The notes beneath the pieces are model-generated. The model saw only the letters and a list, made by a program, of their open reading frames with translations, searched no databases and was not told the origin of the DNA. Below, piece after piece: positions 4,572-18,339 of a DNA stretch of 21,572 bases. The stretch is from a virus: positions 1 through 21,572 of the IMG/VR virus record IMGVR_UViG_3300005264_000837; one strand, written 5' to 3'. How positions within the stretch are numbered: position 1 is the stretch's first letter; each line of letters begins with the position of its first letter. Both the position numbers and the translations under genes were made by a program.

Positions 4572-4665
4572 TTTAGTTCACTTACAAGTAGCTAAAATCA
4601 AAGTTCTGGAAAAGAAAATGGATGAAATAACTAAAGAAATTAAACCAAAAAAGGGTAAAAAATAA
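4468..4665 (+). CDS. small coiled-coil protein overlapping the portal end
   Basis: A 65-aa product beginning MTAKEQEQ. A TTG eighteen bases upstream would lengthen it, but the ATG at 4468 has a GAAGGGG site at normal distance and is preferred. Its first 104 bases overlap the portal 3' end in another frame; its stop overlaps the scaffold ATG (TAATG at 4663-4667). The protein is highly charged and Gln/Lys/Leu-rich, with a likely coiled coil over residues 15-55 and a Lys-rich tail (KPKKGKK). No family is recognised. Position between portal and scaffold suggests a capsid-assembly or DNA-associated minor protein. Confidence 0.65.
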   Translation: MTAKEQEQKQSDLMNLTQSKQLTQNNRKGLQALNDLVHLQVAKIKVLEKKMDEITKEIKPKKGKK

Positions 4666-5326: not shown

Positions 5327-6301
5327 ATGGCAACAATTATTTCTCCCCTTTTGTACGAACCGTTTGTACAACAGGCATTGATATCAACTCCAAATCTTAT
5401 AAGCATGGGATTTGTAGATATTGACACGGCTTTCGATATGGCTGAGGGTGATTTTACAAAAGTCCCTTATCATAATAAACTCACAAGCGTTTCGGCAAAC
5501 AATAACATTGAAGCGGGAACAACCCTGACACCGACTGAAGTTGATGACTTTGAAATCCAAGGCGTCACAATCAGGCGTGGTGATTCTCAGTACGAGACAC
5601 AAGTTGATGCCTCAAGGCGTGGCAGTTCTGCACTTCTTGGCATTAAATCACAAGTTCCACAGGTTGCAATGGATTATATGCAAGATGATTTAGTTGCAAC
5701 AATTAACGGTGCTTTTGATACTGGTGGGGCTTTGGCTTCAACTAATACGGTTGACATAACCAGCATCGGCGATGGTACTCCAGAGCTACAAAGAGTTGAT
5801 TCTGCGGTTGAACAAGTTATGGGTGAAAATGGCAGAGATATTACAGGATATATTGTTAATTCAAAAACTGAATCTGATTTAAAGGCAATTGGATTGGTTG
5901 AATATGTAAACGCCGGTACTTTTGGCGAAAACATATTATACAATGGAAGAATCCCAACGTACAACGGACGCCCTTTACTTGTGAATAATACACTATGTGC
6001 CGTTGACACAACCACAACCCCCGACCAATATGCAATTTATGCAGTTGGTGGAAAACCATTTTGGATATCCCGACAATTAGGGTTGAATATTAAAGAAGAT
6101 AATAATATTCTCATCGGTGGTGGAAAAGACTACTTTGCATGGTATCAATTCTTCGGCGCTGGTGTTAAAGGCGTTTCATATACAGGGACTGCACAACCTT
6201 CGGCTGCAACCTTGGCAACTGTTGGAAATTGGTCTAAAAAGTGGGCTACAAAGGACATTAAAATAGTAAAGATTATTACTAATAAATTAGCGAGTGCATA
6301 A
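5327..6301 (+). CDS. major capsid protein (HK97-like fold likely)
   Basis: A 324-aa protein after the scaffold gene with a GGAAT site before the ATG. The N-terminal region (LLYEPFVQQALISTPNLISMGFV, DFTKVPYHNKL) and the later stretches TLTPTEVDDFEIQ, a helix around ALLGIKSQVPQVAMDYMQDDLVATINGAF (about residues 103-130) and YIVNSKTESDLKAIGL are characteristic of capsid proteins of this class: E-loop strands, spine helix and a P-domain/A-domain core. There is no long N-terminal delta domain, which fits a separate scaffold gene. The stop shares its last base with the ATG of the next gene. Assignment is from position, length and pattern. Confidence 0.8.
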   Translation: MATIISPLLYEPFVQQALISTPNLISMGFVDIDTAFDMAEGDFTKVPYHNKLTSVSANNNIEAGTTLTPTEVDDFEIQGVTIRRGDSQYETQVDASRRGSSALLGIKSQVPQVAMDYMQDDLVATINGAFDTGGALASTNTVDITSIGDGTPELQRVDSAVEQVMGENGRDITGYIVNSKTESDLKAIGLVEYVNAGTFGENILYNGRIPTYNGRPLLVNNTLCAVDTTTTPDQYAIYAVGGKPFWISRQLGLNIKEDNNILIGGGKDYFAWYQFFGAGVKGVSYTGTAQPSAATLATVGNWSKKWATKDIKIVKIITNKLASA

Positions 6302-8305: not shown

Positions 8306-8632
8306 ATGTATCAAAAAGAAAAAATAAGAATAATAGATAAATTATACGATTTACCAATTAAGACAGTTGATAAGGGTTATCATAAACATAATAATATTGA
8401 GCATTGGGTTGTTGAATTTGAAAATGGTGTTTCTTTGATTGTGGAATGTCAACATTTTTTAGATAGTAATTATACGACAATGAAAATTGATTCTCACGGC
8501 GTCAAAATTACTGAGAATGAAATGCTAAATTCATTGAATTGGTTTTGGGAATTATTTAATAAAATTGATTCCTTTTCAGCAAGTGACGAAAAGCAAAATA
8601 TTGATGAATTATTGAAGAAATTAAATGATTAA
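8306..8632 (+). CDS. hypothetical protein paired with the glycosyltransferase
   Basis: A 108-aa protein whose ATG begins on the base after the previous stop, and whose end overlaps the glycosyltransferase start by eight bases, so the two are probably co-translated. It shows an N-terminal beta-rich part (KIRIIDKLYDLPIKTV, IEHWVVEFENGVSLIVEC) and a C-terminal helical part rich in Asn, Asp, Glu and Lys. No signal peptide or membrane helix. I do not recognise a family. Together with the next gene it looks like an insertion into the tail module, so it may serve the same sugar-related task. Confidence 0.65.
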   Translation: MYQKEKIRIIDKLYDLPIKTVDKGYHKHNNIEHWVVEFENGVSLIVECQHFLDSNYTTMKIDSHGVKITENEMLNSLNWFWELFNKIDSFSASDEKQNIDELLKKLND

Positions 8633-10043
8633 AAATTTGGTTATTGTTGTCGCGGGTGCGAATTCTTTGCATAATATTTATAAAGATTCCGATAATTATG
8701 TTTTAAAGGTTATTGATTACCGGGAAACTCCTGGCACAAAGTATCCTTTAATATATAATTATTTGGTAAATGATTTATTCGCTCAAGAAAAGCAATACGA
8801 AAATTACTTATTCCTTGATGATGACATAATGTTAATCACAGAAGATATTGACAAAATATTTAACGAAATGGATAAGGGTAACTGGCAAGTTGGAACGCCT
8901 TCATTTAACGCCCAAAATATGCCCCACAACACAATGCAAACTGATAATAATTGTGTAGGACATACGACAAACGCAATGGATATTTGTAGTGTATTTATGA
9001 AACACGATTATTTGTTGCAAGTTTTTGAATCCTTTAAATTGAACAAATCAGGTTATGGCTTGCAAAATTATTGGTACTCAAAAACAGAGGTTGAATTCTT
9101 TGTTTTAGACACCGTACAAGCGATGCACACAAAGCCCAGCAATTACGGCAAAGATTCAATATACAACTTAACAGACGGCGAAGAGGGTGCTTATAATGAG
9201 TATTTGGAAATGTGGGTGCTAATTGAAAAAGAATTTGGCAAGAAAAAAGAAGATCACATTGCAAAATTTATAAAAAAATACTTAAAAAATGTAATTAGTT
9301 TCCCAATTATTTATTGTGATTCGGATAAGGGGAATCTAATAAATTGTATTAAGTCATTGCCTCAAGATAGTCAAATTATTATTGCTGAAACAATACCGTA
9401 TAATGGCGGATGGAGAATTGATATTAAGGACGAAAAAGCGGACGGATCTTTTATTGTTGCTGAAATCCATTATCCAATGTATGATAAAAATGGCAATGAA
9501 AAGAACCTTTTCAATTTTGCCAACGCTCGAAATTTGGTTAAATCTTTAGCCACAAGACCAGTAATTTTTAGCATTGACGCGGACGAACTTTTATTAAACA
9601 GACAACACGAATTGATTAAACAAGAGGCTCTGGAGTTAGCAAATCAAAATGAGTATAATTATGTAAATATTACAAATTCATCAACTTGTAAATATGGCAT
9701 AGATAAAGACAAAACACAACCAATATTTGAAATGGTGGAACAATCAAGAATTTTCAAAAATAAACCTTCAATCAATTGGGTTTTCCCAAACCAAGAACAA
9801 ATCACAGAATTTATTGATGGCAAACACCAGCCAAGAAATGTTAAAAAATCAATAATTAAAATTGATCATACTGGTTATGAGATAGATAAAGAACACCTTT
9901 TGAGAAAATTTGAACGTAACTTTAAGATGTATTTGGATAATATTTCGGAAAATGGTTACGAGGACTACGAACACGCAAAACATTACTTACACAGAGAAGC
10001 AAATAACTATTATAAACTTAAAGAACAAATGAAAGATGAATAA
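8625..10043 (+). CDS. two-domain glycosyltransferase (DUF707-like plus GT2-like)
   Basis: A 472-aa protein with two apparent transferase domains. The N-terminal part (about residues 1-200) has an acidic FLDDDIML motif at 64-70, like the metal-binding aspartates of DUF707-type enzymes. The C-terminal part (about 225-472) looks like a GT2 enzyme: an NFANARN segment near 297-303, the metal/sugar-nucleotide DXD motif in IFSIDADELL (D318-D320), RIFKNKPSINWVFPNQ, then IKIDHTGYE and a basic helical tail, as in GT2 enzymes that decorate cell-surface glycans. No membrane segment is seen, so it is probably cytoplasmic. It could alter the host surface against superinfection or glycosylate virion proteins; its place between tail terminator and tube genes leaves both open. 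Confidence 0.8.
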   Translation: MIKNLVIVVAGANSLHNIYKDSDNYVLKVIDYRETPGTKYPLIYNYLVNDLFAQEKQYENYLFLDDDIMLITEDIDKIFNEMDKGNWQVGTPSFNAQNMPHNTMQTDNNCVGHTTNAMDICSVFMKHDYLLQVFESFKLNKSGYGLQNYWYSKTEVEFFVLDTVQAMHTKPSNYGKDSIYNLTDGEEGAYNEYLEMWVLIEKEFGKKKEDHIAKFIKKYLKNVISFPIIYCDSDKGNLINCIKSLPQDSQIIIAETIPYNGGWRIDIKDEKADGSFIVAEIHYPMYDKNGNEKNLFNFANARNLVKSLATRPVIFSIDADELLLNRQHELIKQEALELANQNEYNYVNITNSSTCKYGIDKDKTQPIFEMVEQSRIFKNKPSINWVFPNQEQITEFIDGKHQPRNVKKSIIKIDHTGYEIDKEHLLRKFERNFKMYLDNISENGYEDYEHAKHYLHREANNYYKLKEQMKDE

Positions 10044-11230: not shown

Positions 11231-11510
11231 TAAAATTGCATGGCTAAGGCGTACAACTCCGATATACACAATATTAGAGAACGACGCCCAAACCATTGCG
11301 GACCAACGACGCAAAGATAAAAAGTTACCACAGCCCACAATAAGTGGGCTAATTGGTAACGAAATTACAAACAATGAGGCGTTAAGCACTTGTTTAAACT
11401 TATGTGATAATCAAATTGAGCCTGCTTTAAGGTTTTACAATGAATATGATTATTACGACGTAAATTTACTTTACACCCAATTACTCGCTAACTCATATAG
11501 GGTTATATAA
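11211..11510 (+). CDS. tail assembly chaperone, frameshifted downstream (T-like) segment
   Basis: Between the chaperone stop and the tape measure ATG lies a frame open from 11181 to the stop at 11508-11510. Its 109 codons contain no ATG, GTG or TTG, so it cannot start independently by normal rules. It can only be translated by ribosomes leaving the upstream gene by a +1 (equivalently -2) shift in the 11181-11228 window. The A6 run at 11207-11212 (codons AAA AAA) would let tRNA-Lys slip and resume at AAC 11211, giving a fusion of about 281-282 aa; the T6 run at 11198-11203 is an alternative. The segment encodes about 99 residues with a tyrosine-rich end (YNEYDYYDVNLLYTQLL). Known precedents are Mu (-2) and SPP1/PSA (+1) tail chaperones. 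Confidence 0.75.
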   Translation, partial: NLTQQINKIAWLRRTTPIYTILENDAQTIADQRRKDKKLPQPTISGLIGNEITNNEALSTCLNLCDNQIEPALRFYNEYDYYDVNLLYTQLLANSYRVI

Positions 11511-13210
11511 TGCCAGATAAAATAATTGTTCCAATTGAATTTGAAACTAAAAAGAGTGCCGAAAAGGCAGCCAAACAAGCCGAAAAGCAATTCACAGATA
11601 TAAAAATGAATGTTGATGTTGACGCCAACACGTCACAAGCAACAAAAAAAGTCAAGAAATTAGAATCAGAATTAAAGGGAATTGACAGCCCGAAAATAAC
11701 ACCTGAAGTGGATACCGCCCCAGCGGAAAGTGCTTTAAGTGGTTTACAAGACAAGATAACAGACTTTGCGGCTTTGGGTGCCGCTGGTATAGCAGCAGCC
11801 GTTGGTGCTGCAATGGCTGAACTTGTGGCAAGAGGTGGCGAACTTGAGGCAGAATTCAGGAAATTATCGGCACGAACTGGGCGAGTTGGTGAAGATTTAG
11901 ACGTATTAAGAGAAAAAGCCGATTCATTGTTTTTGGCTGGCGTAGGCGAGGATGTTACCGAAGCCGGGAATGCCTTTGCAATGGCAGATCAACAATTGAA
12001 ACAATTTTTAAAAAGTGACGAAGAAATTGAAAAGTTTACAAAATCGGCTGCTGGCATTGCTAATACTTTTGATTTAGAAATTAATGAAGTATTATCAAAG
12101 TCACGTACTTTTATAGCTAACTTTGGGCTTGACGCTGCTGAAGCTGGCGACCTTATAAGTTTGGTTATGAGAGACGCCGCAAACCAATCTGAGGACGTTC
12201 TCGACACTTTATCTGAGTATTCCGTAAAGATGAAAGAAGCCGGGATTAACTCGGAACAATTCACAGGGTTATTAATCAAAGGTGTGCAGGCTGGTGCATG
12301 GAATACGGATAAATTAGCGGATTCCATCCAAGAAACAAGTTTAAGGCTAGAGGGATTTTTGACGTCTGCCTCCTTAACTGGGTTGGTCGACCAAATCGGT
12401 GGGGCTGGTGGTGAAATTGCGGCAGAGTTAGCAACCGTAGCAAAAGAAGCCGAAGCCGGTGAAATTGACACACTTGAATTATTGGGGATTTCAGGAAAAC
12501 GGATAAAAGAAGCGGTTGATTCTGGCGAAATTACAGAAACAATCGGGAGGTCTTTGATTGGGGCTGTTAGTGGTGTCCCTTCAGAGGCTATTGGTTCTGA
12601 GATTTACGGGAAAATGTTTTCAGCACCAATTGACGAAAACGAAATAAAAAAACAAGCCAAACAAGCTGGTCAGTTAATGGCTGATTCTTTAGAGCCAAAA
12701 GGGATTGCGTCAGTCATGCGAATTGTTGACGTTGCAATTAATGATTTAGCAACAACTTTGTCAAGGGCGTTGGCACCTGTTTTTGAGTTGTTGGCTCCGA
12801 TTGTTGCGGCAGTTTATGCGAATATGAAAGTATTATTTACAATAATCGAATGGGTTTTAAAACCTATTGGGTGGCTTGTTGACGGATTCAAATTAATCTA
12901 TGAAGAATTGAAGGTCTTTGAGCCGATTTTAAAAAGTGTTGGTGAGGTTTTTGACCATACCGCGGTTGTGGTTGACGGTGTTTTAATTGAGGCTTTAGAT
13001 GCTGCAAGATTAATATTTAATAGCTTATCAGAGGCAATTTTTGGCAGTGATGAAGAAACAAAAGAGCTTGGCGAAACAATGGAAGGCTCGGCAAGTTGGG
13101 TTGAATCATTTGCAGCCGGCTTAAAGAATGTTACGAAGTGGGTTGGCAATTTCGCAAGTGGTGTTCGTGACTCAATCGAGAATTCAAACAACTTGGCGAC
13201 ATTCAATTGA
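11510..13210 (+). CDS. tape measure protein, N-terminal portion
   Basis: A 566-aa protein following the chaperone genes. It has the hallmarks of a tape measure: an N-terminal coiled-coil stretch rich in Ala/Lys/Glu (about residues 10-55), an Ala/Gly-rich segment (FAALGAAGIAAAVGAAMAEL), a domain with TGRVGEDLDVLREKADSLF and GNAFAMADQQLKQFL, and a membrane-like hydrophobic region near residues 415-470 (LAPIVAAVYANMKVLFTIIEWVLKPIGWLV). The ATG overlaps the chaperone stop (TAATG). It ends in TGA at 13208-13210, exactly where the C-terminal part of a tape measure continues in another frame. Length governs tail length only if the two parts act as one. Confidence 0.85.
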   Translation: MPDKIIVPIEFETKKSAEKAAKQAEKQFTDIKMNVDVDANTSQATKKVKKLESELKGIDSPKITPEVDTAPAESALSGLQDKITDFAALGAAGIAAAVGAAMAELVARGGELEAEFRKLSARTGRVGEDLDVLREKADSLFLAGVGEDVTEAGNAFAMADQQLKQFLKSDEEIEKFTKSAAGIANTFDLEINEVLSKSRTFIANFGLDAAEAGDLISLVMRDAANQSEDVLDTLSEYSVKMKEAGINSEQFTGLLIKGVQAGAWNTDKLADSIQETSLRLEGFLTSASLTGLVDQIGGAGGEIAAELATVAKEAEAGEIDTLELLGISGKRIKEAVDSGEITETIGRSLIGAVSGVPSEAIGSEIYGKMFSAPIDENEIKKQAKQAGQLMADSLEPKGIASVMRIVDVAINDLATTLSRALAPVFELLAPIVAAVYANMKVLFTIIEWVLKPIGWLVDGFKLIYEELKVFEPILKSVGEVFDHTAVVVDGVLIEALDAARLIFNSLSEAIFGSDEETKELGETMEGSASWVESFAAGLKNVTKWVGNFASGVRDSIENSNNLATFN

Positions 13211-15296: not shown

Positions 15297-16627
15297 ATAT
15301 TTTTAGAGCCACTTTGCAAGATGTTACAATTGATTATTTGAAAGAAGTTTGTGATTTATCGGCAAATGAGGACGACATTTCAGGGGTCACTTATTTACGT
15401 TGGGACTATACAAATGCAGACGGCACGCCTTCCACGGCAACAATGCCAGATGTTATTGAGGGTGGATTCGATATAAAGGCTTTATCTTATACCAATTTTG
15501 TGACTGCGGTTCACACGGCGGCGATTAACTTAATTAGTCCATTAACGCGAACAACATGGACAGCCGAAACCGTAAAGGATTCAATGTTGGGTTCATTGGT
15601 TTTATACAAATTAAACACAAGTTATGGATTAAAGGCATTGGTCGGTACGCCTTTGGTTTCTTCTCAAATACGTTTTATATCCAGAATTTTAGACGGCTCT
15701 AAAGAAATTGCAGGGATGTTAACAGCAACCAAGTCCGATAATTCATTTTTTGCTTTTGAGAACGTTTGGGATTTGCTCACAAATTGGTTGCCAAGTTTAT
15801 TTTCAAAAGGTTATTTAAATATTAATTTGACTAAAGGCACTTCAATTATTGCAGAAATTGGTTTTAAGGGTGTTTTTGAGGCAACGGCTGGCAATGCTTA
15901 CGTAATTACAAAAGCCGATATGGTTAACGATGATGTTGAATATACAGAAGGTTTTGAAATTGTAAACGCTGGTTATATTGCCTGTGCTGATATGTCTGAA
16001 AACCAAGGCAACACTTATGAAGTTAAAAATAAATCCTCAAGATGGTCAGATAATAAATTTGAGTACGAGCCTATAGTCCACAATATGATTCCAATGGCAA
16101 TAAAAGGGGTACACAAATCGGGGACGGTGTTTTCGCCCACGGCAAAACATAGATACAAACCCGAATATGATTTAATGCGGGGTTTGTTGTATATGCCAAC
16201 GTCAACAAGTGCCGCAAAAACCCACGACTGGCTTAAATTTGCACTTGGGGACGGTACTTTTATAGAATCGGAGAGTATCACATCATTCTCAGATTTACCA
16301 ACGACACTGCCAGGCCGACGGAAACAATTAAACAACTGGATTGAAGAAAGACACACTTTGTCTGGCTTTGCTTATACACTTGCAAAAGCGGGTTTACAGG
16401 TTTTTGGGAATGAATTTCAAACTCAAATACCTTGTACGTTGCAACTTGAGAAAGCACTGCCAAGGCATTTGGGAGATATATATACAATAGATGTTAATGA
16501 TTTATACCCATTTGATATAACCACAAAGATTGACAGCGATCCAGACAATGCGGTTTTAACAAGTGTCGAATGTGACTTTTACAAACAAGAATCTGAAGCA
16601 ACTTTTTTTATTAGAGGTGATAGATAA
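15251..16627 (+). CDS. tail tip protein, C-terminal portion in a second frame
   Basis: This frame is open from 15227; the first usable start is a TTG at 15251, without a ribosome binding site, giving 458 aa. Its first 15 residues merely re-read the end of the previous gene in another frame and look non-native (MVSNERRYCASHK), so the true protein probably begins around LDIFRATL (15293). The body is beta-rich with aromatic strands and a C-terminal part containing HTLSGFAYTLAKAGLQVFGNEF and IYTIDVNDLYPFDI, similar in feel to tail hub or Tal-type structural domains that end in a beta-sandwich. Likely role: tail-tip hub or receptor-binding platform. Confidence 0.65.
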   Translation: MVSNERRYCASHKCLDIFRATLQDVTIDYLKEVCDLSANEDDISGVTYLRWDYTNADGTPSTATMPDVIEGGFDIKALSYTNFVTAVHTAAINLISPLTRTTWTAETVKDSMLGSLVLYKLNTSYGLKALVGTPLVSSQIRFISRILDGSKEIAGMLTATKSDNSFFAFENVWDLLTNWLPSLFSKGYLNINLTKGTSIIAEIGFKGVFEATAGNAYVITKADMVNDDVEYTEGFEIVNAGYIACADMSENQGNTYEVKNKSSRWSDNKFEYEPIVHNMIPMAIKGVHKSGTVFSPTAKHRYKPEYDLMRGLLYMPTSTSAAKTHDWLKFALGDGTFIESESITSFSDLPTTLPGRRKQLNNWIEERHTLSGFAYTLAKAGLQVFGNEFQTQIPCTLQLEKALPRHLGDIYTIDVNDLYPFDITTKIDSDPDNAVLTSVECDFYKQESEATFFIRGDR

Positions 16628-17121
16628 TGGGTTTTAATAGGAATAAAGCAAAATCAATTAATCCAACTAAAATGGTAAATTATCGCAAAACTGGTAATGC
16701 TATGAATGTTGCAATTAATAGCACAACCAAAAATATATTTGTGCCGTATGTAATTACGGGCGGACTTGGCGAGGACGTGGATATTTCCACAAATTCGTTT
16801 TTGGCGTCTTTTAACCCTGAAGATGGTTTATGGTATAAATCCACGGCTTTAAAGTCTGATAACTTGCCAGCGTGTGGGGTTTTTGTACAATCAGGATCAA
16901 CAGGTGACACGGTAAATATTCAACAATTTGATGAAATTGCTTTGAACGGTGCTGATTTTGATTTAACCAAGCCGGTTTATTTAGACAATGGCACGCCAAA
17001 TTTTTCACAAGATTTATTAACAGACCCGACAAGTGCAAAAGATTTAAGGCAATATATAGGTTTCCCAATTTCCGATAATCATATAATTTTGAACATTTCA
17101 GAGCCTAAAATTTTGTATTAA
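16627..17121 (+). CDS. small tail fibre- or cement-like protein
   Basis: A 164-aa protein, last gene of the virion operon, with a GAGGTG site before an ATG that overlaps the upstream stop (TAATG). It is beta-rich, and its end, PVYLDNGTPNFSQDLLTDP followed by YIGFPISDNHIILNIS, follows a pattern often seen in phage tail-associated or cement proteins, where a 'vYl..gG..t' strand pair is followed by a 'G.a.s...i.i' strand. An intrinsic terminator starts 27 bases after the stop. Exact role unknown; a tail-surface or receptor-related part is plausible. Confidence 0.55.
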   Translation: MGFNRNKAKSINPTKMVNYRKTGNAMNVAINSTTKNIFVPYVITGGLGEDVDISTNSFLASFNPEDGLWYKSTALKSDNLPACGVFVQSGSTGDTVNIQQFDEIALNGADFDLTKPVYLDNGTPNFSQDLLTDPTSAKDLRQYIGFPISDNHIILNISEPKILY

Positions 17122-17147
17122 TTGCACAGAGTTAATACAACAACCCG

Positions 17148-17178
17148 ACCCCGCAAGGCTTATTTTTGTGGGGTTTTT
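17148..17178 (+). terminator. intrinsic terminator of the virion operon
   Basis: Stem ACCCCGC (17148-17154) pairs with GTGGGGT (17168-17174), seven pairs including one G-U, with a 13-base loop, followed by a T-run starting at 17174. It lies 27 bases after the last virion gene. Confidence 0.85.
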
Positions 17179-17192
17179 ATTTATCAGGATTT

Positions 17193-17204
17193 TTTGTATA
17201 TTGC
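17193..17204 (+). promoter_or_regulatory. promoter-like repeat, copy 1 (TTTGTATATTGC)
   Basis: First of four near-identical 12-mers in a 300-bp gene-free stretch. TATATT resembles a -10 box (one mismatch to TATAAT) and also partly the TANNTTTG -7 box of Bacteroidota. The copy sits between one terminator and the next, so a transcript of about 50 bases is implied. No convincing -35 is visible; a T-run occupies that place. Confidence 0.5.
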
Positions 17205-17224
17205 GATTGTTAATAATTGATTTT

Positions 17225-17259
17225 GCCTTTTTTGGTTTCGTGCTGGAAAAGGCTTTTTT
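17225..17259 (+). terminator. intrinsic terminator after promoter-like copy 1
   Basis: Stem GCCTTTT (17225-17231) pairs with AAAAGGC (17247-17253), seven perfect pairs, followed immediately by TTTTTTATTT. It lies about 20 bases downstream of the promoter-like repeat rather than behind any gene. Confidence 0.75.
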
Positions 17260-17272
17260 ATTTGGGGGACTA

Positions 17273-17284
17273 TTTGTATATTGC
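17273..17284 (+). promoter_or_regulatory. promoter-like repeat, copy 2 (TTTGTATATTGC)
   Basis: Identical to copy 1, 80 bp downstream, right after the previous terminator. The implied transcript of about 80 bases carries a hairpin (CTGTCTT 17300-17306 with AAGACAG 17317-17323) before the next terminator. Confidence 0.5.
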
Positions 17285-17333
17285 AGTTGCAAGACTCGTC
17301 TGTCTTGTATAAACAAAAGACAGAATAATATTG

Positions 17334-17366
17334 AGCCTGTGCCTTCGTAAGCTAACAGGCTTTTTT
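17334..17366 (+). terminator. intrinsic terminator after promoter-like copy 2
   Basis: Stem AGCCTGT (17334-17340) pairs perfectly with ACAGGCT (17355-17361), followed by TTTTTATT. No protein gene precedes it. Confidence 0.85.
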
Positions 17367-17397
17367 ATTGCATACATTTTGATTTTAAAATATATTA

Positions 17398-17409
17398 TTT
17401 GTATATTAC
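17398..17409 (+). promoter_or_regulatory. promoter-like repeat, copy 3 (TTTGTATATTAC)
   Basis: Third copy with one change (A for G at base 11). This one has a good -35-like TTGATT at 17379-17384, exactly 17 bases before TATATT, supporting a sigma-70-type promoter. Downstream lies a TAGTG-GAAA-CACTA hairpin (17422-17435) with a GNRA loop, then a terminator. Confidence 0.6.
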
Positions 17410-17445
17410 ACACGCTCAACATAGTGGAAACACTAACTCTCTTGG

Positions 17446-17473
17446 AGTCCCCAACCTTGGGGGCTTTTTTTAT
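17446..17473 (+). terminator. intrinsic terminator after promoter-like copy 3
   Basis: Stem GTCCCC (17447-17452) pairs with GGGGGC (17459-17464), one G-U pair, loop AACCTT, followed by seven T. Confidence 0.85.
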
Positions 17474-17483
17474 TGCCAAAAAT

Positions 17484-17495
17484 TTTGTATATTGC
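17484..17495 (+). promoter_or_regulatory. promoter-like repeat, copy 4 (TTTGTATATTGC), likely promoter of the 17677 operon
   Basis: Identical to copies 1 and 2 and 86 bp after copy 3. Unlike the others it is not followed by a terminator, so it probably drives the four-gene operon starting at 17677 through a leader of about 170 bases. Confidence 0.55.
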
Positions 17496-17560
17496 AAATG
17501 TTGATAATCCCTGAAGGTTGAGGAGGCGCACACAAATGACATTATTTTGTTATAAGGTTC

Positions 17561-17585
17561 ACGGGTTCAAGTCCCGTTAGGGGAG
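17561..17585 (+). other. tRNA 3'-end-like sequence (T-arm plus acceptor strand)
   Basis: ACGGG-TTCAAGT-CCCGT (17561-17577) is a perfect tRNA T-arm: five pairs and the invariant TTCAA loop. It is followed by TAGGGGA (17578-17584) as an acceptor 3' strand and G as discriminator, without CCA. TCCCTGA at 17508-17514 could pair with the acceptor strand at six of seven positions, giving a 78-base span, but no normal D-arm or anticodon arm with U33 can be drawn. It looks like the 3' end of a tRNA (Glu-type acceptor by memory), either an attachment-site core, a decayed tRNA, or a tRNA mimic in the leader of the next operon. Confidence 0.55.
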
Positions 17586-17599
17586 CAAAACACAAAGCC

Positions 17600-17636
17600 T
17601 GCCCCACCTCTCAAGGAAGTGCAAAAGGGGTGGGCG
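17600..17636 (+). promoter_or_regulatory. hairpin in the leader of the 17677 operon
   Basis: GCCC-C-ACCTC (17601-17610) pairs with GGGGTGGGC (17627-17635), nine pairs with one bulged C, loop of 16 bases. No T-run follows, so it is not a terminator; it lies about 25 bases before the AGGAG site of the next gene and may stabilise or regulate the leader. Confidence 0.5.
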
Positions 17637-17676
17637 TAGATTTAAATTTGTTTGAGCAACAAAGGAGAGAAAAATC

Positions 17677-18339
17677 ATGCCATTGAACAAAGTAAAACCT
17701 AATCCCAAATTAATGTATAACTTCATTACTCACACTTGGAATGCCATTAAAGGGGAATGTCCTCACAATTGTTCTTATTGCTATATGAAACGCTGGGGGA
17801 AACAACCTGATTTGAGATTTGATGCAAAGGAATTAAAAACAGACTTAGGTTCTAATAATTATATCTTTGTCGGGAGTTCCTGCGATATGTTTGCAGAAGC
17901 AATACCTGAAGATTGGATTATTAAGACATTGGGACACTGTGGAAATTTCGATAATACGTATTTATTCCAAACTAAGAACCCAAAAAACATAAGAAGAATA
18001 TTACCAGAAAAATCAATTGTTTGCGTTACGGTTGAATCAAATCGAGATTATCCATCGGTATCAATAACACCAAAACCGTGCGACCGATTGAATGAATTAT
18101 CAAAAGTCCGGCGTATTTATGGGAAAATGATAACCATAGAGCCGATAATGCAATTCGATTTGAAGCCGTTTGTCAAAATGATTAAAAAGTGCGATCCTAT
18201 TCAGGTTAACATTGGGGCAGATTCCGGGAAAAATAAACTTCCCGAGCCAACAAAAAAAGAAGTTGAATCATTGATTCCAGAATTGCAAAAGTTTACAAAA
18301 GTGCATTTGAAACCAACATTGAATAGGATTATAAAATGA
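17677..18339 (+). CDS. radical-SAM-like phage protein (Gp37/Gp68, DUF5131-like)
   Basis: A 220-aa protein with a strong AGGAG site about 9 bases before its ATG. Near the N-terminus it has a cysteine triad C28-X3-C32-X2-C35 within GECPHNCSYCYMKRWG, the pattern that holds a 4Fe-4S cluster in radical SAM enzymes. It is followed by IFVGSSCDMFAEAIPEDW, YLFQTKNPKNI, VCVTVESN and MITIEPIMQFDL, segments arranged as in phage Gp37/Gp68-family (DUF5131) proteins. At 220 aa it is near the usual size of short members. The reaction is unknown. It heads a four-gene ATGA-linked operon with a DNA methyltransferase, so a nucleic-acid modification role is possible but unproven. Confidence 0.75.
   Translation: MPLNKVKPNPKLMYNFITHTWNAIKGECPHNCSYCYMKRWGKQPDLRFDAKELKTDLGSNNYIFVGSSCDMFAEAIPEDWIIKTLGHCGNFDNTYLFQTKNPKNIRRILPEKSIVCVTVESNRDYPSVSITPKPCDRLNELSKVRRIYGKMITIEPIMQFDLKPFVKMIKKCDPIQVNIGADSGKNKLPEPTKKEVESLIPELQKFTKVHLKPTLNRIIK

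Follow-up and report, generated by a model that had tools for sequence, protein, structure and literature searches.

A serial array of promoter-like repeats and terminators between two phage operons, a candidate cluster of small-RNA genes

Why does a phage keep, between two of its operons, a gene-free stretch in which four near-identical 12-mers alternate with what look like intrinsic terminators? Phage noncoding RNAs are poorly known, especially in uncultured phages, and an arrangement of this kind could encode several of them, or could serve some other purpose at an operon boundary. The stretch of DNA that we analysed (the window, 21,572 bases) is a whole viral contig, in which a phage virion operon is followed by the array and then by accessory genes. 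The array lies exactly between two operons on the same strand, the second of which starts with a DUF5131 gene, followed by two small genes and a DNA methyltransferase. The genes that frame the argument are:

1574-2878, terminase, virion operon
5327-6301, major head protein, virion operon
11510-13210, tape measure, virion operon
16627-17121, plus strand, final virion-side gene upstream of the array, 164 aa, function unknown, weak similarity to phrog_12121
17677-18339, plus strand, DUF5131 family gene, of the radical-SAM-like phage Gp37/Gp68 type, opening the next operon

We found no better-known kin for this contig; the closest terminases are only about 30% identical, and the virion-side proteins flanking the array have no relatives in the viral collection. 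Shine-Dalgarno-like sites lie upstream of 15 of the 23 genes, against 1-4 at control positions, which disfavours a Bacteroidota host, and a search of 247 Bacteroidota genomes, run without a positive control, retrieved no relative of the terminase. Separately, the DUF5131 protein (17677-18339) shows 58-59% identity to proteins from two viral contigs, and a 472-aa protein encoded within the virion operon (8625-10043) has weak similarity to glycosyltransferases.

The four near-identical 12-mers of the original prediction are indeed present: TTTGTATATTGC occurs three times without change, and the remaining copy carries a single mismatch (TTTGTATATTAC). Distances between successive copies are 80, 125 and 86 bases.

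17193-17204, plus strand, 12-mer copy 1, exact, putative long -10 element
17273-17284, plus strand, 12-mer copy 2, exact
17398-17409, plus strand, 12-mer copy 3, one mismatch
17484-17495, plus strand, 12-mer copy 4, exact, without a terminator ahead of the next gene

There are no further exact copies in the 21,572-base record. With a 31-column matrix derived from these copies, the copies themselves reach scores of 29-38 and the rest of both strands stays at or below 16.3, and the array is the only place in the whole window where a 10-mer is present four times within 420 bases; in the shuffle control for this last count, the shuffles reaching four copies may do so via poly-T words. The 12-mer turned up rarely in 395 Bacteroidota genomes, where we inspected 30 sites and found about two thirds of them inside open frames.

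A terminator-like hairpin with a T-run follows each of copies 1-3, as had been proposed, two of them detected by scanning and that of copy 2 by folding (-12.1 kcal/mol), because its bulged stem was overlooked by the terminator scanner. With the terminator of the upstream virion operon, a G+C-rich hairpin followed by a T-run thus occurs four times between 17147 and 17471, inside 330 nt:

17147-17179, plus strand, terminator of the upstream virion operon, hairpin 17147-17175, T-run 17174-17179 at the -35 position of putative promoter 1
17225-17259, plus strand, terminator 1, hairpin 17225-17253, T-run 17254-17259 at the -35 position of putative promoter 2
17333-17366, plus strand, terminator 2, AGCCTGT..ACAGGCT hairpin 17333-17362 followed by T6, found by folding only
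17444-17471, plus strand, terminator 3, hairpin 17444-17467, T-run at the -35 position of putative promoter 4

When the region was shuffled, 283 of 300 shuffles contained no terminator and three were never reached; likewise, in the 479 kb scanned (loci plus window), only the array holds three terminators within 400 nt. The matrix scores, the shuffles and this unique terminator cluster led us to reject a chance origin of the array.

In three of the four copies, the two kinds of element are set at a fixed distance. Measured from the final G or C of a terminator stem to the beginning of the 12-mer behind it, this distance is exactly 20 nt for copies 1, 2 and 4 (17173 to 17193, 17253 to 17273 and 17464 to 17484) and was not part of the original prediction; for copy 3 it is 38 nt. 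The 20-nt distance brings the terminator T-run (T5-T7) to the -35 position, 17 bp before TATATT, and copy 3 has a hexamer of its own at that position:

17379-17384, plus strand, TTGATT, -35-like, 17 bp ahead of the TATATT of copy 3

The hexamers at the -35 position of copies 1 to 4 are therefore TTTTTA, TTTTTT, TTGATT and TTTTTT, with a 17-bp spacer throughout, and TATATT, a 5/6 match to TATAAT, is present in all four copies. A sigma-70 scan passes copy 3 only. This spacing is what would be expected of the -10 part of a promoter whose T-rich upstream element is packed against a terminator, and from it we infer promoter activity, exerted through some polymerase or sigma factor; the 12-mer would plausibly be a phage-specific promoter element with a long -10. 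A promoter of the Bacteroidota type (TTG ... TAnnTTTG) was discarded, given that its -7 element is unmatched in the 12-mer, which has TATATTGC, and that Shine-Dalgarno sites are present.

What follows copy 4 differs from what follows the other copies and also goes beyond the original prediction: a degenerate tRNA, a strong hairpin and the DUF5131 gene, with no terminator between them.

17508-17585, plus strand, degenerate tRNA whose T arm is perfect, acceptor stem paired at 6 of 7 positions, anticodon loop of 6 nt
17598-17638, plus strand, strong leader hairpin of the next operon, with a weak resemblance to abiF RNA

The tRNA-like sequence begins 12 nt past copy 4 and matches the Rfam tRNA model from end to end, with 19.3 bits against a gathering threshold of 29; ARAGORN finds it only with a lowered threshold. 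Having an anticodon loop of 6 instead of 7 nt and a score below the family cut-off, it is by these criteria a decayed, non-working tRNA. The same positions could be read as a tRNA-derived attachment site; nevertheless, the exact 29-mer at the tRNA 3' end is absent from a genome collection of 84,980 species and a 25-mer is absent from the viral contigs, and we rejected a prophage attachment site for the genomes sampled, although a host outside them might have one: the 5' half of the tRNA is present too, which agrees better with a decayed tRNA gene. A frame of 14 codons that follows a GAGGAGG site (17536-17580), possibly a chance occurrence, overlaps the 3' half of the tRNA and stops before the leader hairpin. 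The hairpin, of which 17598-17635 weakly resembles abiF antitoxin RNA, was also rejected as an abiF RNA (RF03085): it scores 21.6 bits against a cut-off of 37, with other database matches at 33-57, it has ACCTCT...AAGTG instead of the conserved GCCUCU...AUGC core, and no terminator lies behind it. Reading the 12-mers as putative promoters gains weight from the terminators downstream of them and from the tRNA relic.

Alternatively, a phage protein, such as a repressor or a replication or antitermination factor, might bind the 12-mer as an asymmetric site and act at the terminators; mycobacteriophage stoperators are a known asymmetric repeat and provide a precedent. Conservation extends over all 12 positions, beyond what a host sigma-70 -10 requires, and a fixed distance of 20 nt could suit a factor that acts on termination. 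Clustered motifs have, moreover, been mistaken for promoters before: a clustered 12-bp motif of phage 7-11 was predicted to represent late promoters (PMC4331800), and primer extension yielded a consensus other than this motif (PMC8948821). Rechecking phage 7-11, we found four 12-mer copies within 260 bp of one intergenic region, with no terminators between them, a case indicating that repetition alone is no proof of a promoter. In our array, however, TATATT, a T-rich or TTGATT element at 17 bp and a terminated unit downstream are together what a promoter would be expected to display, and copy 4 precedes a tRNA-like gene, so we regard a binding site as decidedly improbable.

Yet another explanation is a relic of local duplication: repeated copying of one terminator-promoter segment, followed by decay or replacement of the bodies, would have left an array with no selected function of its own. 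Copies 1 and 4 share 73% identity across 52 nt, including the start of the part that would be transcribed, and the tRNA has decayed already. Yet three copies have kept an intact 12-mer next to bases that have diverged, and the terminator stems are well formed and unrelated to each other in sequence. As was first proposed, the bodies differ and the repeat is conserved; the bases between T-run and 12-mer also vary among copies, which suggests constraint on the spacing and the 12-mer and not recent copying. A mere relic thus appears very doubtful to us.

With starts placed about 7 nt past TATATT, the first three putative promoters would produce RNAs of about 51, 78 and 58 nt, in agreement with the three transcripts of 50-80 bases originally envisaged:

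17209-17259, plus strand, predicted RNA 1, about 51 nt, unpaired 5' arm and terminator
17289-17366, plus strand, predicted RNA 2, about 78 nt, two mutually exclusive hairpins ahead of the terminator
17414-17471, plus strand, predicted RNA 3, about 58 nt, TAGTG-GAAA-CACTA hairpin at 17422-17435

The internal hairpins claimed for the second and third units were recovered, that of unit 3 with its GAAA loop and that of unit 2 in two alternative forms, 17288-17309 (-9.4 kcal/mol) and 17299-17324 (-9.5 kcal/mol). Compared with shuffles, units 1, 2 and 3 have fold z values of -3.7, -2.8 and -3.3, mostly owed to the terminators, and unit 1 is little beyond a terminator. The unit bodies gave no RNA-family matches at the gathering threshold, and the duplex energies of the predicted RNAs with phage start regions were no better than random. 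Judged by sequence, then, the three units would have the anatomy of a tandem sRNA cluster, each with a putative promoter, a body and a terminator.

As a separate observation, predicted RNA 1 (17209-17259) has two 13-nt perfect complements in phage mRNA, one (16648-16660) near the start codon of the gene directly upstream of the array and the other (4642-4654) near the ribosome site of gene 4665; two such matches occur in about 1% of random 51-nt segments.

The short units could, however, be of no consequence, and this is the main rival explanation: at an insulated boundary, stacked terminators would halt the virion operon and repeated promoters would restart transcription, with only copy 4 mattering for the DUF5131-methyltransferase operon and the short RNAs being functionless by-products. 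The position between two same-strand operons, the density of terminators, the dissimilar bodies and the scant content of unit 1 all agree with insulation, and Kayvirus provides a known case of a promoter placed immediately after a terminator (PMC7698491). Nonetheless, a single good terminator and a single promoter would suffice for that purpose, and insulation accounts neither for the tRNA relic nor for the internal hairpins of units 2 and 3; we consider it somewhat unlikely as the whole explanation. Titration of host RNA polymerase by decoy promoters had been suggested as well, to which titration of a sigma factor may be added, and repeated promoter-like sites with short terminated transcripts, as predicted here, would be compatible with such decoys. 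Four sites per genome are, however, a small sink, a DNA decoy needs no terminators and our searches produced nothing specific in favour of decoys, which we find hardly credible. Among the functions initially put forward, small RNAs retain the backing of the tRNA relic and the differing bodies, and insulation that of the strong boundary terminators; nothing specific backs decoys.

Overall, we interpret the array as a cluster of phage small stable-RNA genes at the boundary between the virion and accessory operons, made of fused terminator-promoter cassettes and with a fourth promoter serving the tRNA relic and the next operon, and we assign this interpretation a probability of roughly 0.5. An RNA-gene cluster is favoured by the degenerate tRNA behind copy 4 together with the differing bodies. 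Each 12-mer would act as the long -10 of a promoter, paired at a distance of 17 bp with an upstream element that is TTGATT in copy 3 and T-rich in the other three, where the DNA encoding the U-tract of the terminator before it would supply the element. Promoters 1-3 would give rise to the short RNAs of about 51, 78 and 58 nt, each stopped by its own terminator, and promoter 4 to a transcript beginning just before the decayed tRNA and entering the DUF5131-methyltransferase operon. The terminators that close the cassettes would also block transcripts reading through out of the virion operon; we infer, even so, that the RNAs and not insulation are the selected trait. A more specific version, which we hold to be unlikely, is that of a phage-specific cassette whose U-tract doubles as an upstream promoter element at a fixed 20 nt and which is deployed in series to express, in the infected cell, small regulatory RNAs unrelated to one another. 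Should the array function as proposed, it would represent a compact way of stacking RNA genes, with the T-run of one terminator shared with the next promoter, and it would supply defined short RNAs to test; if it only insulates, it would still be a clear example of fused terminator-promoter boundaries.

We looked for a further copy of the array at both DNA and protein level, among phage records, viral contigs and bacterial genomes, and retrieved none from these collections, which may omit close relatives. A GCTTTTT-gap-12-mer pattern gave 15 matches, all lacking a terminator stem, and the tandem-pattern matches were discarded: that in L011 is a coding repeat, that in L048 a CRISPR array, and those in L049 and L050 are repeats of other kinds. 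Two loci, L014 and L048, have CRISPR-like arrays with repeats of 36 and 47 nt that contain TTTGTATATT; L048, a contig from the viral collection, begins with its array. In L050, a locus of 5832 bp, TTTGTATATTAACA is found five times on the minus strand (2269-2525); this part of the viral contig has few genes, and the copies may be operators or iterons. The original prediction knew of no named system with this layout, and neither the literature nor the data that we searched provided a match for such a promoter-terminator array.

Partial likenesses to known systems are nevertheless evident. Bacterial tandem small-RNA genes of the LhrC, PrrF or OmrA/B type each have their own promoter and terminator, and their copies have similar bodies and regulatory targets. 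The array resembles them in its consecutive short units but differs from them in its dissimilar bodies. In type II-C CRISPR arrays, for example in Flavobacterium, there is a promoter inside every repeat (PMC10309648). The array is similar in its repeated promoter-like sequence, with one small RNA predicted per unit, and TTTGTATATT also ends the 36-nt CRISPR-type repeat of L014; unlike those arrays, it has a 12-nt repeat, irregular spacing and terminators, and lacks a repeat of 36 or 47 nt. A CRISPR-repeat or RNA anti-CRISPR mimic was rejected, the alignment to the L014 and L048 repeats being near chance.

Among phages, promoters of the phiEco32 sigma factor consist of a single 9-bp element, tAATGTAtA, with starts 6-8 bp downstream (PMC8948821); these and phage 7-11 share with the array a short phage-specific motif, but of a different sequence. 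Late promoters of Kayvirus (Staphylococcus phage vB_SauM-515A1) lack a -35, their long -10 being TGTTATATTA, and the same phage has abundant noncoding RNA regions of 525-570 bp adjoining tRNA genes (PMC7698491). Kayvirus promoters are dispersed and do not form a serial promoter-terminator array; what Kayvirus and the array have in common is a long -10 (putative here) containing TATATT, RNA (predicted here) beside a tRNA, and a promoter, putative in our case, after a terminator. In all, the serial layout at a fixed distance is unmatched in the data and papers searched, and its parts are ordinary, each of a known kind.
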